A stretch of DNA of 64,000 bases from Natronolimnobius baerhuensis (GTDB lineage: Archaea > Halobacteriota > Halobacteria > Halobacteriales > Natrialbaceae), in NCBI RefSeq assembly GCF_002177135.1, contig NZ_MWPH01000003.1, positions 372,001 through 436,000 of the forward strand. Direction: 5' to 3'. Each line of letters begins with the position of its first letter. Position 1 is the stretch's first letter. Both the position numbers and the translations under genes were made by a program. This document shows, piece by piece, positions 775 to 14,814 of the stretch. A model generated the notes under the pieces. The model was not told the origin of the DNA and did not search any database. It saw nothing but the letters and a program-made list of their open reading frames with translations.

Positions 775-2526
775 CTACACGTCGTAAAGCAGTTCGACGA
801 CGTCCGCAAAGCCGACCTCGTCGGTACCAGCGAAATCGAAGTCCGCCCAATTCTGCTGGATCGCATCGTCCTCAAGGTTCTCGAAGAAGGCGGTGACGTC
901 GTCGTGGGTCGTCTGGCCGTCACCGGTGAAGTCGTTCCGGAGGCCATCGCCGGTCGTATCCTCGGGTGTGTAGTCGCCGACGACTGGGTCGTCGTCGCCG
1001 TTTCCGTCGCCATCGACTGTGAGTTCCAACTGCACGGGCCCGTCGGCGTCGGTCACGGAGACCTGCTGGGTCGCCGACTCGCCGTTGACAGTGACAGTAA
1101 CCTCGTGGTCCCCGTGGAACACAGCTGTCTCGAACTCGCCGCTGGAATCGGTCGTGCCGGACTCGTCGGTCCACCACTCGTCGAAGACCAGATCGACGTA
1201 CTCGTCGTAAGCCGGCTTTTCGGTCCAGTCCTCTTCGTACAGCGGCGCGTCCGGATCGTCGCCCATTTCCGGGCCCCAGTGGACTGGATCCCAGTGGCCC
1301 CACATGAGGAAGTCCTCGGCTTCGGGATGGCTGAAGAACGTCTTGAGGAACCGGTGGAGGTAGTCGGCCTGCATCTGTCGGTCCCAGCCGTCGCCGAACA
1401 TATCGAACTCGGTGACCTTGAGGCCGGCACCGTACTGGGCGTACTCATCGAGCCGGGTCATCATCTCGTCGTAGCTGATCCGCTCGTCGGCGTAGTGGTG
1501 GGACTGCATCCCGATGCCGTCCAGATCGATCCCGCGCTCGTTCATCAGATAATCGATCTGGTCGTGGTACTGGTCGCGGGCGTAGCCGTGGTTGCCGTTG
1601 AGCGTGTTGTAGTCGTTGACCGCAATGTCGATGTCGTACCGGTCGGCGACCTCTTCACCGAACTCGTACCAGTCGCCCAGGATTTCTGCGGTCTCCGGAG
1701 TGGTTCCCTGCCCTTCGATGGCTTCGATCATCGCTGGCTCGTGGAAGACCTCATTGACGATCTCCCACTCCGTAATGTCGTCGCCGTAGTGTTCGATGAT
1801 CGTCTCGATGTGATCCATCGACTCCTCGACGACGTAGTCGGGGTCGTGATCCGGCTCACCAGCTTCTTCCCAGTCTTCACCCATCGCTTCGACGACCCGC
1901 GGCGGAATCGCGTGCGCGTCGATGTTCCCCCACAGTGCGACGTGACCGCGCACGTCCATATCCCGCTCGCGAGCCCACTCGACCGCCTCGTCGGCGATCT
2001 CGGTGTTGTCTTCCCACAGGTTCCACTTGTGGACGTTCTCGAGGACGATCATGTTGAAGTGCTCCTCGAGGGTTTCGGCGTAGCGCTCCTGATCTTCGTC
2101 GGTGTAGATATCCTCGCCCCACTCGCTGCCCCGCGTGAGGAACTCGGCGTGGGCCATACACCCAAAGCCAAAGTCGTGTCCCTGTTGTTCGATTTCGACC
2201 GTTGCATCCGTCACCGCCGCGCCGTCGTCGGTCTCGACGACGACCTCGAGGTCGCCCATTCGGTACTGCTCGATTCGCTCGTCGGCCGCGGCCTCCCACG
2301 ACTCCTGTGCGAGCGCACTCCCGGTCGCACCAGCACCGAGGCCGAGTCCGCCAAGTCCGCCGGCCAGCCCCGCGGCTCCGATTCCGCGAAGGTAGTCTCG
2401 CCGCTCGAGCGCTGTCGTCGACTCTTGCTCGTTGCTCGCTTGCGACTCTGTCCCCGCTGCCCGTTGGTCATCCGATGCTGTTCGCTCGTCGTGCTCCCCT
2501 GGCGTTGTCTCGGTATTCCGTGTCAT
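775..2526 (-). CDS. GH10 endo-xylanase-like enzyme with C-terminal dockerin-like module, Tat-exported
   Basis: The 583-residue protein has a Tat motif (RRDYLRG, residues 42-48) followed by a hydrophobic segment ending near ALAQ (71-74). After a short beta-rich stretch (about 90-118) comes a GH10 TIM barrel (about 120-450). The acid/base glutamate lies in WEIVNEVF (E259) and the nucleophile in VTEFDMF (E373), so the expected reaction is endo-hydrolysis of beta-1,4-xylan outside the cell. A small beta domain (about 462-504) and an Asp/Gly linker precede a dockerin-like module (about 517-583). The module has one clear calcium-loop repeat (DFTGDGQTTHDDV) and a second, poorer one (DFAGTDEVGFADV). 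GGAG lies about 10 nt upstream of the ATG. The neighbouring gene encodes cohesin-like modules, which suggests docking. Xylanase specificity is inferred from family. Confidence 0.88.
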   Translation of the reverse strand: MTRNTETTPGEHDERTASDDQRAAGTESQASNEQESTTALERRDYLRGIGAAGLAGGLGGLGLGAGATGSALAQESWEAAADERIEQYRMGDLEVVVETDDGAAVTDATVEIEQQGHDFGFGCMAHAEFLTRGSEWGEDIYTDEDQERYAETLEEHFNMIVLENVHKWNLWEDNTEIADEAVEWARERDMDVRGHVALWGNIDAHAIPPRVVEAMGEDWEEAGEPDHDPDYVVEESMDHIETIIEHYGDDITEWEIVNEVFHEPAMIEAIEGQGTTPETAEILGDWYEFGEEVADRYDIDIAVNDYNTLNGNHGYARDQYHDQIDYLMNERGIDLDGIGMQSHHYADERISYDEMMTRLDEYAQYGAGLKVTEFDMFGDGWDRQMQADYLHRFLKTFFSHPEAEDFLMWGHWDPVHWGPEMGDDPDAPLYEEDWTEKPAYDEYVDLVFDEWWTDESGTTDSSGEFETAVFHGDHEVTVTVNGESATQQVSVTDADGPVQLELTVDGDGNGDDDPVVGDYTPEDTTGDGLRNDFTGDGQTTHDDVTAFFENLEDDAIQQNWADFDFAGTDEVGFADVVELLYDV

Positions 2527-9762: not shown

Positions 9763-9942
9763 TCAAAACATCCCGAAACTCTGGAGCACGCTCGAGACGA
9801 GTGACTTGACGACTAGGCCGAGGCCGGCAAGGACGAGCGCGATCCCAGCCGCGATAATCCAGTCTGCATACGCGATCAGTCCGATACCGGCGAGCAACAC
9901 CACAATCCCGACGAAACCAAGCGGGCCAATCTTATCGATCAT
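9763..9942 (-). CDS. Small two-helix membrane protein
   Basis: The 59-residue product has two hydrophobic helices (about 8-25 and 27-45, GFVGIVVLLAGIGLIAYA and IIAAGIALVLAGLGLVV) and a short polar tail. The ATG at 9942 gives a compact protein; the frame stays open far upstream but through sequence that looks non-coding. It is convergent with the DUF460 gene, ending 14 nt from it. I recognise it only as a type of small conserved haloarchaeal membrane protein; the function is unknown. Confidence 0.7.
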   Translation of the reverse strand: MIDKIGPLGFVGIVVLLAGIGLIAYADWIIAAGIALVLAGLGLVVKSLVSSVLQSFGMF

Positions 9943-9987
9943 ACGCTGAGTGGCCAGTCGACCGAAATAAACGACGTGGTTTTGTGA

Positions 9988-10065
9988 TACTGCCGGACAA
10001 AACGAGTTACAGACTTTCGACCGAACGGTTGGTCGAAAATCTGTACTGACTTTTGTCTGGTATAG
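9988..10065. repeat. Long imperfect palindrome, about 78 bp
   Basis: The two halves mirror each other around an 8-bp centre (10023-10030). The inner arms TTTCGACC (10015-10022) and GGTCGAAA (10031-10038) are perfect. The outer arms share GACAAAA and TACAGA words with small mismatches, out to TACTGCCGGACAAAA on the left and the reversed TATACCAGACAAAA on the right. There is no coding capacity. The shape resembles a MITE-like element or a large hairpin. Confidence 0.65.
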
Positions 10066-10144
10066 TAGCCACTGAAAGTCAGTGCACACCTGATCGCCAG
10101 ACAGATCGGCGATCAGTGTGTGAATCGTTTCAGTTGTTACTATA
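10061..10144. repeat. Second long palindrome, about 84 bp, MITE-like
   Basis: Left arm TATAGTAGCCACTGAAAG... (10061-10098) and right arm, reversed, TATAGTAACAACTGAAAC... match for about 37 bp with a few mismatches. The innermost TGATCGCC/GGCGATCA arms pair perfectly around a short loop. The ends carry TATAGTA termini. It abuts the palindrome at 9988-10065, overlapping by about 5 bp. The pair lies between divergent genes upstream of aIF-1A. Family unknown to me. Confidence 0.65.
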
Positions 10145-10251
10145 GTATGACTCGCCGCTGGCTCGAGGGTCACGGCTCGAGTCGGGGTTTCGGCTGGGTG
10201 GCGCGAGAAAATCGATAAAGGGTTAAACACCTCCACCGCGAATTTCAGGGT

Positions 10252-10542
10252 ATGAGTGACGACGGAGACGGCGGTCGAAAGAACCTCCGGATGCCAGAGG
10301 ACGACGAGGTCTTCGCGACCGTCACCGATATGCTCGGGGCGAATCGGGTTCAGGTACGCTGCGCAGACGGCCAGGAACGCACGGCGCGTATTCCAGGCAA
10401 GATGCAAAAGCGCGTCTGGATTCGCGAGGACGATGTTGTCCTCGTTTCCCCGTGGGACTGGCAGGACGAGAAGGCCGATATTACGTGGCGGTACGAAAAG
10501 AGTGACGCCGATCAGTTGCGTGAGGAAGGCCATATCCAATAA
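10252..10542 (+). CDS. eif1A: Translation initiation factor aIF-1A
   Basis: The 96-residue product matches archaeal IF-1A, the OB-fold factor that binds the A site of the small ribosomal subunit during start-site selection. Visible features are the strand pattern [22 protein letters not shown], the basic [21 protein letters not shown] core and the short acidic C-terminal tail. Length is normal for archaea. A TTAAAC element lies about 25-30 nt upstream of the ATG, so the mRNA may be leaderless. The upstream region contains two large palindromes and the 3' flank a long hairpin array. Confidence 0.93.
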
Positions 10543-10548
10543 AACGAA

Positions 10549-10925
10549 CTTTTGCGCTGTCGTTCGAAAGACGCAAAGCGTCTTTCGTGATGACGAGAGA
10601 GCTTCGCTCTCTCGAACCACGGGCGCGGCAAGCCGCGCCCTCGGCAAAATCTTCAAAAGAGCGCGCAGCGCTCTTTTGGACCTCGCGGGATCAAAGATCC
10701 CGCTTAGCTTCGATGAAAAGCACTCCTCCTTCCGTTTCCTCCCTGTGGAGCGACGCAAAGCGTCGCGTCCTCGCTCGTTCACATCAGTCGTCGGCCCGCG
10801 AGCGCCGTCGGCGCTCGCGGTGAACAGCTTCGCTCACGGTTCACTTCGTTCACCGTTCGCTGGTCGCGGTTCTCGCCCTCCGGGCTCCGAACCGCGCTTC
10901 GCTCGGGTTTTTCAAACCACTCGCT
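10549..10925. repeat. Triloop-hairpin array, element 1
   Basis: Starting 7 bp after the aIF-1A stop, this non-coding stretch packs perfect hairpins almost end to end, most with a 3-nt loop closed by C-G. They lie at 10565-10587 (10-bp stem, AAA), 10594-10614 (9 bp, TTC), 10621-10640 (9 bp, AA), 10654-10678 (11 bp, GCA), 10685-10703 (8 bp, AAA), 10751-10765 (6 bp, AAA) and 10796-10820 (11 bp, GTC). Between them lie blocks shared with the element at 13520-13660: CTTTTGCGCTG, CGGCAAAATCT, AAAAGCACTCCTC and CACATCAGTCGTCGGCCC. From 10821 to 10925 the sequence contains further partial repeats (GTTCAC/TTCGCTC words). Repeat class unknown. Confidence 0.75.
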
Positions 10926-11020
10926 CGCCGATACTATGTCGTGGGTAGTTTGGTAGCTGAGGTACTCCGGCGCTGTGCTCTGCCTTCGATGGTTTCCCTT
11001 CGTCAGCCTGCCCTTCCCCG

Positions 11021-11118
11021 TTGAGCGAAACCGAAGGTTTCGCGAGATTCTCGGCGCTTTGCGCCGACTGCTCGAGGGACCTTTGGTCCCTCGCTGCTCG
11101 GAAGCGCTTGCGCTTCCG
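11021..11118. repeat. Triloop-hairpin array, cluster B
   Basis: Four perfect hairpins lie in under 100 bp: 11025-11043 (8-bp stem, loop GAA), 11051-11067 (7 bp, TTT), 11073-11093 (9 bp, TTT) and 11099-11118 (9 bp, TT). They follow element 1 in the same 716-bp gene-free interval (10543-11258) upstream of the subtilase gene. I saw no coding sequence there; a promoter element (AGCTTATT, about 11228-11235) lies just before the subtilase start. Confidence 0.7.
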
Positions 11119-11258
11119 TTGGTTCGTGCGCTTCTCGAGATTCTCGGAGCGCACTCACAGCCATGATATTGGTGGCTCAACTCGTCGATCATGAGACGCA
11201 GACACGTCCAGCACCGTCGTACAGAAAGCTTATTCCTTTCCTTGACTTTCCAGCCGGC

Positions 11259-13294: not shown

Positions 13295-13441
13295 AGCGCT
13301 TGCTCATTCGCCGATTGTATAATTGTTCCGCCGTTGAATTAAACAGAGACGACTTCGATTAATTCCAGCCTGCAAACCGCCTGCCTGCAAATCGGTCGCG
13401 GTGCGAAGCGCTCGCCGCTGAGTCGTGACTGCGAACGCTGC

Positions 13442-13516
13442 CTACAGACCCGCGATGTCTTCGATTGCACCGGTCAGGGCTTTGATCGACTCGAGGTCGT
13501 GTTCGCCCATATAGGC
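13442..13516 (-). pseudogene. Detached duplicate of the 3' end of the class V aminotransferase gene
   Basis: Read on the minus strand from ATG at 13510, this encodes MGEHDLESIKALTGAIEDIA then GL and a TAG stop. The true gene tail at 13702-13770 encodes the same 22 residues with only two changes (D for G, V for I). The remaining base differences are synonymous, apart from a TAA/TAG stop difference. Homology ends a few bases beyond the ATG, near 13516. There is no start region or body of the gene, so this is an orphaned gene tail, not a functional copy. Confidence 0.85.
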
Positions 13517-13519
13517 CCA

Positions 13520-13660
13520 CCTTTTGCACTGCGGGCCGCCTTCGGCGTCCGTCGGCAGAATCTGGACCAAAAGCACTCCTCTTTCCGTTTCGGGTGCTTT
13601 GCACCCTCCACATCAGTCGTCGGCCCACTCACTCACGTCCGTTCGTTCGCGGTTGAACGT
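13520..13660. repeat. Triloop-hairpin element 2, between two copies of the aminotransferase tail
   Basis: This carries the same ordered blocks as element 1: CTTTTGCACTG (13521-13531), CGGCAGAATCT (about 13553-13563), AAAAGCACTCCTC (about 13570-13582) and CACATCAGTCGTCGGCCC (about 13609-13626). A perfect GGGTGC-TTT-GCACCC hairpin lies at 13592-13606 and a short CGCC-TTC-GGCG hairpin at 13537-13547. The spacers differ from element 1 while the blocks are kept, so the two are members of one repeat family. It has no coding capacity that I can recognise. Confidence 0.7.
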
Positions 13661-13701
13661 CCTCGACAGAGACTCCAATCCGGCGATGTCCTCGCCAGTG
13701 A

Positions 13702-14814
13702 TTACAGTCCGGCCACGTCTTCGATTGCATCGGTCAGGGCCTTGATCGACTCGAGGTCGTGTTCGCCCATGTGGCCGATGCGGAACGTTGTCTCGCCAAG
13801 TTGGGAGCCGTAGCCGTTCGAGAAGACGAAGTCGTACTCCTCGCTGACGGTCTCGATGGTGTCGGCCACGTCGATTCCCTGCGTGTTCTCGATGCAGGAG
13901 ACGGTCTGGGACTCGTAGCCTGCCTCGGGGAACATGTCGAAGTGCTCGCGGGCCCACTCCTGGGTGTATTCGGCCATCTCGCGGTGGCGCTCGTCGCGAG
14001 CATCGTGTCCCTCCTCGAGCATGTGTTTCATCTGCGTGCGGTAGGCGAGCATGATCGGGATGGCGGGCGTCGAGTGGGTCTGGCCCTTCCGGTCGTAGTA
14101 GTCGATGGTGCGCTGGAAGCCGCCGTACCACGAGGCCGAATCGGACTCGAGTTCGGCGTCGTAGGCGTCCTCGCTGACCGTACAGATGGCGAGTCCCGGG
14201 GGCATCGCGAATGCCTTCTGGCTCGAGGCGAACAGGACGTCGATGTTGTGCTCGTCGATATCGACGTAGTCACCGCCCAGCGCGGAGACAGCGTCGACGA
14301 CGAAGTAGGTGTCTGGATACTCAGCGATGACATCGCCGATTTCCTCGATTGGGTTCCGAACGCCGGTCGAGGACTCGTTCATGACGGTTGCGACGACGTC
14401 GTAGTGTGTGTCGCTCTCCTCGAGGGTTTCGCGGATGTCTTCGGGTTTGATCGCCTGGCCCCAGTCGTACTCGAGGCGATCAACGTTTTTCCCGAGTCGT
14501 TCGGCGACGTTGGCGTGGCGCTCGCTGAAGCTGCCACAGGTCGGAACGAGGATGTTCTCGTCGACGAGGTTGAGCGTCGAGGCCTCCCAGAACTCGGTGC
14601 CCGAACCCGTCAGGACGATCACGTCGTTGTCCGTGCCGAGGAACTCCTTCGTGTCCTCGACGATGGTCGTATAGAGGTCGGTCATACGGTCCATGCGATG
14701 GCCGAACATCGGCTCGCACATGGCCTCGATGACGTCCTCGCGCACTTCGGTTGGCCCCGGAATGTACAGCGTCTTGTCGGGATAGTCGCCCGTATACTCG
14801 CGTTTGTTGGTCAC
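13702..14814 (-). CDS. Class V aminotransferase (alanine-glyoxylate / serine-pyruvate type)
   Basis: This PLP enzyme of about 370 residues is related to alanine-glyoxylate and serine-pyruvate aminotransferases. The N-terminus has LYIPGPTEVREDVIEAM, the cofactor lysine lies in ASSQKAFAMPPGL, and the Asp contacting the pyridine nitrogen is in VVDAVSALGGD. GTG at 14814 is preferred as start because AGGTGA precedes it by 4 nt and matches the 16S anti-Shine-Dalgarno end. A TTG at 14847 is also in frame. It is a cytosolic enzyme; the exact amino donor is not decided by the sequence. The last 22 codons are duplicated at 13442-13516 beyond a hairpin element. A short further echo (GEDIAGL) can be read at about 13680-13700 on the minus strand. 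Confidence 0.88.
   Translation of the reverse strand: MTNKREYTGDYPDKTLYIPGPTEVREDVIEAMCEPMFGHRMDRMTDLYTTIVEDTKEFLGTDNDVIVLTGSGTEFWEASTLNLVDENILVPTCGSFSERHANVAERLGKNVDRLEYDWGQAIKPEDIRETLEESDTHYDVVATVMNESSTGVRNPIEEIGDVIAEYPDTYFVVDAVSALGGDYVDIDEHNIDVLFASSQKAFAMPPGLAICTVSEDAYDAELESDSASWYGGFQRTIDYYDRKGQTHSTPAIPIMLAYRTQMKHMLEEGHDARDERHREMAEYTQEWAREHFDMFPEAGYESQTVSCIENTQGIDVADTIETVSEEYDFVFSNGYGSQLGETTFRIGHMGEHDLESIKALTDAIEDVAGL

Follow-up and report, generated by a model that had tools for sequence, protein, structure and literature searches.

Seven perfect hairpins crowd together directly behind the gene for translation initiation factor 1A (aIF-1A) in the haloarchaeon Natronolimnobius baerhuensis, and they raise the question of what kind of sequence could produce so many similar folds from different stems. 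An earlier note on this DNA saw in them the preservation of a fold rather than of a sequence, and suggested either a DNA-level process, such as palindrome formation by template switching, or a structured RNA or chromatin element. We find that the hairpin block is a single member of a dispersed family of haloarchaeal structured elements that had so far escaped annotation. The best explanation, to which we give a probability of a little under 60%, is that it is a 3'UTR element of housekeeping genes that combines a scaffold acting at the RNA level with palindromes that move at the DNA level.

The hairpin block behind aIF-1A

The aIF-1A gene occupies positions 10252 to 10542 on the plus strand of the window (the whole 64,000-nucleotide stretch analyzed here), as an open reading frame that matches Pfam PF01176 (E value, 7.8e-26) and ends with TAA at 10540-10542. 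All seven hairpins reported downstream are present as described, and every one is closed by a C-G pair: 10565-10587 (10-bp stem, loop AAA), 10594-10614 (9 bp, TTC), 10621-10640 (9 bp, with the 2-nt loop AA), 10654-10678 (11 bp, GCA), 10685-10703 (8 bp, AAA), 10750-10766 (7 bp, AAA), and 10796-10820 (either 12 bp flanking a single central base or 11 bp with loop GTC). The array had been confined to about 260 bp, but four further hairpins lie directly downstream (11025-11043, 11051-11067, 11073-11093, and 11099-11118), so that the block, at 10545-10935 and continuing to 11163, extends over about 600 bp.

Hairpins with a 3-nt loop and a stem of at least 8 bp number 7 in the 64-kb window, compared to 1.0 in dinucleotide shuffles, and 6 of the 7 fall within the block. 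Folded as RNA, 10540-10830 reaches -142 kcal/mol (z = -8.3). The shuffles and the fold z-score together rule out a chance origin. The excess is local, as a 400-kb sample of the same genome contains 15 such hairpins versus 9.3 expected, and a genome-wide excess of triloop hairpins is not supported. The view that this is not a CRISPR array holds, as the stems differ, the spacing is irregular, and regular repeats are absent. A virus origin was rejected on finding zero matches in 50,697 phage records. A coding function was also rejected: the two reading frames that overlap the block (10256-10948 on the plus strand, 230 aa, and 9763-10782 on the minus strand, 339 aa) look spurious by position and run into the hairpins. 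These frames may nevertheless be annotated automatically as hypothetical proteins.

Other repeats lie close by. Upstream of aIF-1A, positions 10061-10146 hold a MITE-like repeat with inverted ends CTATAGTARCCACTG..., and relatives of this repeat with an insert of the GCGGTTCGGAGYGA type occur at seven other loci (L005, L008, L009, L012, L013, L015, and L016). Directly before it, at 9993-10060, is a long imperfect palindrome with 30-nt arms that are 77% complementary, separated by an 8-nt spacer. Two further loci (L053 and L073; G000:C3:159920-160033) have another terminator-like motif nearby, in which a perfect G+C-rich hairpin is followed by GGCCTTTTTCATC or a close variant.

Distribution, architecture, and placement of the element

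Used as a query against its own genome, the block gave about 20 partial matches, a portion of which belonged to other repeat families. What had been described as a stand-alone array after one gene proved to be one of many copies of a dispersed family. A 17-nt core pattern occurs in 103 of the 125 genomes of the host's family, with reversed-pattern controls near zero. Across the order, a covariance model (R1) built from 12 clean copies matches in 236 of 392 haloarchaeal genomes and in 64 of 95 genera, with up to 48 matches per genome. The named records that carry the element are mostly from Natrialbaceae, and there are copies on plasmids, also without annotation. R1 found no match in any of the bacterial contigs that contain the 17-nt core by chance. 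Rfam at its gathering score gave zero matches in the window, and the block and three clean copies yielded only chance-level ones; this absence, clean copies included, excludes a described Rfam RNA family.

The 5' part of the element can be written as a stop codon, 0 to 5 nt, and then CGAAXTTTTnC-KCTG-[HP1]-CTCGG-n'AAAA-YTTCG-ATZ-AAAAGCACTCCTCC-YTCC, and the 3' part as [HP2]-CATCRGTCGTCGGCCCGC-[HP3]-GCGGT followed by a 3' domain of either type A (CCTGCCCTYCCCCG...CTCCCGGCC) or type B (CGGTGAACGGC...GCCGATGCT). The scaffold is thus a long P1 helix capped by the hairpin HP1, a conserved core (GATNAAAAGCACTCCTCC), HP2, a second conserved segment, HP3, and the 3' domain. In the copy behind aIF-1A, on the plus strand throughout, the 5' strand of P1 (CGAACTTTTGC, 10545-10555) begins 2 nt past the stop codon and has a covarying partner in the family alignment. 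The inner 3' strand of P1 (GCAAAA, 10644-10649) pairs with TTTTGC, and G-C, A-U, C-G, and U-A are all observed at its variable position, while the outer 3' strand and the conserved core (CTTCGATGAAAAGCACTCCTCCTTCCG) together occupy 10708-10734. HP1 (GGGCGCGGC-AA-GCCGCGCCC, 10621-10640) is conserved in position, with its sequence class swapped between orthologs. It is followed by HP2 (GCGACGC-AAA-GCGTCGC, 10750-10766), the second conserved segment (CACATCAGTCGTCGGCC, 10780-10796), in which a Y/R position covaries with the core (columns 156/295 of alignment A2: C-G 34, U-A 26), and HP3 (CCGCGAGCGCC-GTC-GGCGCTCGCGG, 10796-10820). Positions 10820-10935 hold a type B 3' domain that contains an additional hairpin-rich stretch, and the same domain follows the element at six other loci (L047, L049, L051, L103, L106, and L123). 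A type A domain (CCTGCCCTTCCCCG ... GCGCACTCACAGCCA) follows at 11006-11163, enlarged by the four nested downstream hairpins; type A domains are present in 33 of the 68 stop-adjacent copies considered below.

The window contains a second copy of the element on the plus strand, at 13518-13653 (C3:385517-385653; R1 score, 112.7 bits; E value, 4.3e-22), which carries neither of the cassettes, M1 and M2, described in the next section. It adjoins the duplicated 3' end of a class-V aminotransferase gene: about 75 nt occur at both 13440-13517 and 13700-13770, flanking the element, and the duplication looks as though a truncated paralog had been left behind. In some relatives, for example those represented by L259 and L264, the class-V aminotransferase gene is directly convergent to aIF-1A.

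That the fold is kept rather than the sequence is borne out by the covariation counts. In the 12 clean copies, 43 cells are double-changed, compared to 14.5 after shuffling and at most 7 in slid controls. In A2, with 69 distinct rows, 324 cells are double-changed versus 96 after shuffling (sd 10) and at most 43 when slid, and 93.9% of cells pair versus at most 45.4% when slid; A2 was fitted to the model, so its counts lean towards structure and the 12-copy count is the less biased. G-U outnumbers A-C by 35 to 18 in P1 and the inner helix (p = 0.03), whereas the ratio is 5 to 8 in HP1 and HP2, which have almost no G-U intermediates. The strand specificity of RNA-level selection is weak.

Position relative to genes is strikingly constant. 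With the MITE-like form excluded, the element starts 0 to 5 nt past the same-strand stop codon of an open frame with 60 or more codons in 68 of 81 copies, compared to 84 of 3240 random positions (2.6%; p = 8e-85). Among loci from distant families the figure is 12 of 17, which is preliminary because some of these loci lack a P1 recognizable under the simple pattern. A gene-adjacent position on the same strand and a conserved, covarying fold, both features of a cis-acting 3'UTR element, are therefore found together, and they uphold the structured-RNA reading for the scaffold. The stops before the 68 copies are TAA in 41, TAG in 24, and TGA in 3 (65 of 68 TAA or TAG), whereas long background open reading frames end with TGA in 98, TAG in 59, and TAA in 58 cases (117 of 215 TAA or TAG). 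A C precedes the stop in 51 of the 68 element copies but in only 51 of 162 background TAR stops. At TFS, orthologs with the element end with TAA (3), TAG (3), or TGA (1), that is, 6 of 7 with TAA or TAG, and orthologs without it end with TGA in 14 of 14 cases; the simplest reading would be that gain or loss of the element and the change of stop went together.

Of 29 relatives, about a dozen have the element behind aIF-1A, its location never varying, and decayed copies were seen in two. Element-bearing genes recur across genera, and we take the others to include L10e, TFS, PAN, thermosome, GyrB, PurF, and an acyl-CoA dehydrogenase, names given from the sequence. The next gene is convergent for 38 of 63 element copies versus 58 of 141 background gene ends (p = 0.015), a modest excess based on heuristic gene calls, and facing pairs of elements are found between convergent genes.

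One form of the element behaves differently. This MITE-like form occurs as identical, multi-copy sequences (L078-L088) with imperfect short inverted ends (TCACTACAGG / CCTGTACTGA), and none of its 13 copies is stop-adjacent; hence the scaffold can also travel. No clean empty site for the whole element was found at TFS between genome G000 and its sister G001, because the two loci differ over the entire downstream region; the right boundary of the element is not fixed. The strongest rival to a 3'UTR function is that the element is purely selfish mobile DNA, resembling REP, SMR, or PATE sequences and without RNA function, whose position would reflect insertion into a short target sequence (CT^GA or CTAR) that overlaps the stop, with other insertions having been purged. 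It would account for the identical copies away from stops, the preference for a C before the stop, the switch from TGA to TAR at TFS, and the clear mobility of the cassettes. However, the same orthologous genes bear the element across many genera, the scaffold covaries, and simple selfish spread does not demand placement after genes on the sense strand only. We consider this reading unlikely, while giving it more credit than the other rivals discussed below.

Nested cassettes and turnover of hairpin arms

The long-stem hairpins of the block are of two kinds: arms of the element (HP1, HP2, and HP3) and inserted double-hairpin cassettes. Cassette M1 (10560-10619, plus strand) consists of the hairpins at 10565-10587 and 10594-10614, joined by the linker TGATGA, and sits between CTG and the first hairpin of the element. 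It scores 87.9 bits with its own model (R2), and most element copies are without it. Cassette M2 (10650-10707, plus strand; hairpins at 10654-10678 and 10685-10703) sits between GCAAAA and CTTCG, at a P1 mismatch, a point at which some element copies have M2 and others do not. Further cassettes occur inside the M1 or M2 linkers of other copies (L030, L031, L033, L283, L303, and L329). In the copies read, M1 is 54 to 64 bp in length, with terminal inverted repeats TCGTTCG...CGAACGA or TCGTTCG...CGAACCA. R2 detects M1 in 18 of 20 genomes, its counts being inflated because M1 also matches on the opposite strand. No transposase was found linked to M1 or M2. A genome of another family (G133:C1, L393-L401) has 56 R2 matches, among them several 58-bp copies with identical scores, which suggests recent cassette activity there.

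An IS200/IS605 element in the genome that holds the block (L014) contains two M1-type insertions of exactly 54 bp each, neither of which shows a target duplication relative to empty sites. One lies in frame inside the tnpA reading frame (1571-1969, minus strand), to which it adds 18 codons; it is present in Natrinema versiforme and Haloferax larsenii, and the empty site is seen at L358, L359, and L361. This in-frame insertion resembles palindromic elements that live inside proteins. The other insertion occupies the loop of the end hairpin of the IS, the same loop in which M1 is found in four other IS end hairpins (L378, L386, L387, and L392). Cassettes enter unpaired positions in the scaffold and in other palindromes and leave no target duplication. 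The statement that the block is not an IS end needs qualifying, as its M1 cassette also occupies the end-hairpin loops of IS200/IS605 elements.

The 94 elements contain 161 perfect triloop hairpins, and C-G closes 160 of these. Their loops are GNA in 64, the reverse complement TNC in 60, and other in 37 cases, and on the sense strand TTC (34) is matched by GAA (32) and TCC (12) by GGA (14). Of 157 background hairpins in the 400-kb sample, 40 are C-closed and 31 have GNA or TNC loops. Hairpins of M1 copies, a set that partly overlaps the elements, are C-closed in 44 of 45 and GNA or TNC in 36 of 45 cases, and hairpins of other families in 20 of 20 and 15 of 20, respectively. Within the window, GNA and TNC account for just 3 of 10 triloops, with AAA and TTT dominating. 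The minihairpin C(GNA)G is known for its extraordinary stability as DNA (PMC4686876 and references therein), and it can be supplied by either strand. Single stems carry both triloop orientations, and in the orthologous tnpA insertions the loops are flipped (GGA/TCC and GAA/TTC) while the stems stay constant. Of 24 congeneric ortholog pairs, only 5 share the class of HP1, a proportion not above that in non-orthologous pairs (31 of 197). Two TFS loci from different genera match exactly through the gene end and the first ~105 nt, after which HP2, HP3, and the 3' domain differ.

A DNA-level process, as the earlier note had surmised, is clearly involved, since identical stems carry triloops in two orientations, whole arms are replaced, and cassettes have precise empty sites. 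From these comparisons of sequences, we conclude that the arms are replaced and flipped as DNA; that the scaffold is held mainly as RNA is the weaker claim. If the element were an ordinary structured 3'UTR or terminator RNA, with hairpins evolving by stepwise compensatory mutation under RNA selection only, the covariation, the adjacency to stops on the sense strand, the convergent neighbors, and the hairpins known upstream of 3' ends in Haloferax volcanii (PMC7237163) would all fit. As the sole process, stepwise compensation is contradicted by the strand symmetry of loops on identical stems, by an HP1 that is wholly different between congeneric orthologs, and by the near absence of G-U intermediates in HP1 and HP2; the precise empty sites of the cassettes also count against an RNA-only account, which we regard as improbable. 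Even less credible is a DNA structural element (a cruciform or a nucleoid or replication landmark) that acts on both strands irrespective of transcription, for although the palindromes are perfect, GNA and TNC loops are strand-symmetric, and A-C is as common as G-U in the arms, placement is strictly on the sense strand 0 to 5 nt past stop codons and the core segments are orientation-specific.

A proposed 3'-end element with mobile palindromes and its relatives

In the explanation that we favor, a 3'UTR element with an RNA-level scaffold and DNA-level palindromes, the scaffold would form a structure at the mRNA 3' end that blocks readthrough and/or 3'-exonucleases, especially between convergent genes. 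The role would be one in termination or protection. The claim that the array is no terminator lacks a firm basis, given that the scaffold most likely functions at 3' ends. A bacterial-type intrinsic terminator was not found: T runs are absent after HP1, HP2, and HP3, and the scaffold's only T4 run is in P1, ahead of the hairpins. As DNA, the palindromes may move, flip, and exchange through single-stranded hairpins, either mobilized by HUH transposases of the IS200/IS605 type or copied by ectopic gene conversion among copies; in Haloferax volcanii, gene conversion is reported to be highly efficient (PMC11276520). The shared product would be exceptionally stable C(GNA)G minihairpins, whichever strand carries them. 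A bolder version, which we offer tentatively and consider doubtful, is that haloarchaea possess an active hairpin-writing system. A trans-acting activity, probably HUH-type or repair-coupled, would insert, flip, and exchange C(GNA)G minihairpins at unpaired hairpin positions, and the resulting nested palindromes would have been adopted as stop-codon-fused 3' ends of housekeeping mRNAs.

The closest known kinds are the SMR-A and PATE repeats and REP-like palindromes. SMR-A of Haloquadratum walsbyi is short, too short to hold a transposase; it has inverted ends, makes no target duplication, inserts inside near-terminal palindromes of IS605-type elements, and is present in tens of copies in a genome (Dyall-Smith et al. 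2011, PMC3119063). M1 agrees with it in all of these points. Compared by features, M1 shares three of four with SMR-A, namely, the lack of target duplication, the prominent terminal inverted repeats, and insertion in near-terminal IS605/PATE palindromes (as in L014, L378, L386, L387, and L392), and differs in length (54 to 64 bp versus ~110 bp). Unlike SMR-A, M1 is built from a pair of triloop hairpins whose stems vary, and it also inserts into 3'UTR elements and the tnpA frame. PATEs (palindrome-associated transposable elements) have near-terminal palindromes and no terminal inverted repeats or target duplication; like the element studied here, they are transposase-free haloarchaeal repeats that are palindrome-rich, vary in length, and receive nested insertions (PMC3119063). 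In contrast to PATEs, the element has a covarying P1, conserved cores, and a start at stop codons, and IS605-like boundaries are not shown for it. As its ends are not fixed, we claim no REP or PATE membership for the scaffold.

Mobile hairpin units that accumulate in intergenic DNA are also known as mitochondrial double-hairpin elements and GC clusters (PMC4478555, PMC2800124); these are organellar, and no fusion to stop codons is reported for them. In Haloferax volcanii, hairpins lie upstream of mapped 3' ends, and in a test of one hairpin (S12), termination reached 59% of transcripts (Berkemer et al. 2020, PMC7237163). Between genes, the principal signal in that species is a T stretch, and no conserved family like the element appears to be described in that study.

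The mode of life of the element is similar to that of the REP and BIME sequences of enterobacteria, dispersed 3'UTR hairpins with proposed links to mRNA stability, termination, and HUH transposases. The element differs in its domain of life, its longer multi-domain fold, its nested cassettes, and its position, which is fixed 0 to 5 nt past TAA or TAG.

An unannotated family thus sits directly on the stop codons of core genes in most haloarchaeal genera. C(GNA)G on either strand, with both loop orientations on a given stem, is a specific and testable signature of DNA-level turnover, and covariation alone should not be read as RNA selection. The element is a natural experiment on the origin and movement of short palindromic repeats that lack a transposase gene, and on how haloarchaea define the 3' ends of their mRNAs. 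It may show DNA palindromes in the course of spreading and reshaping mRNA ends.
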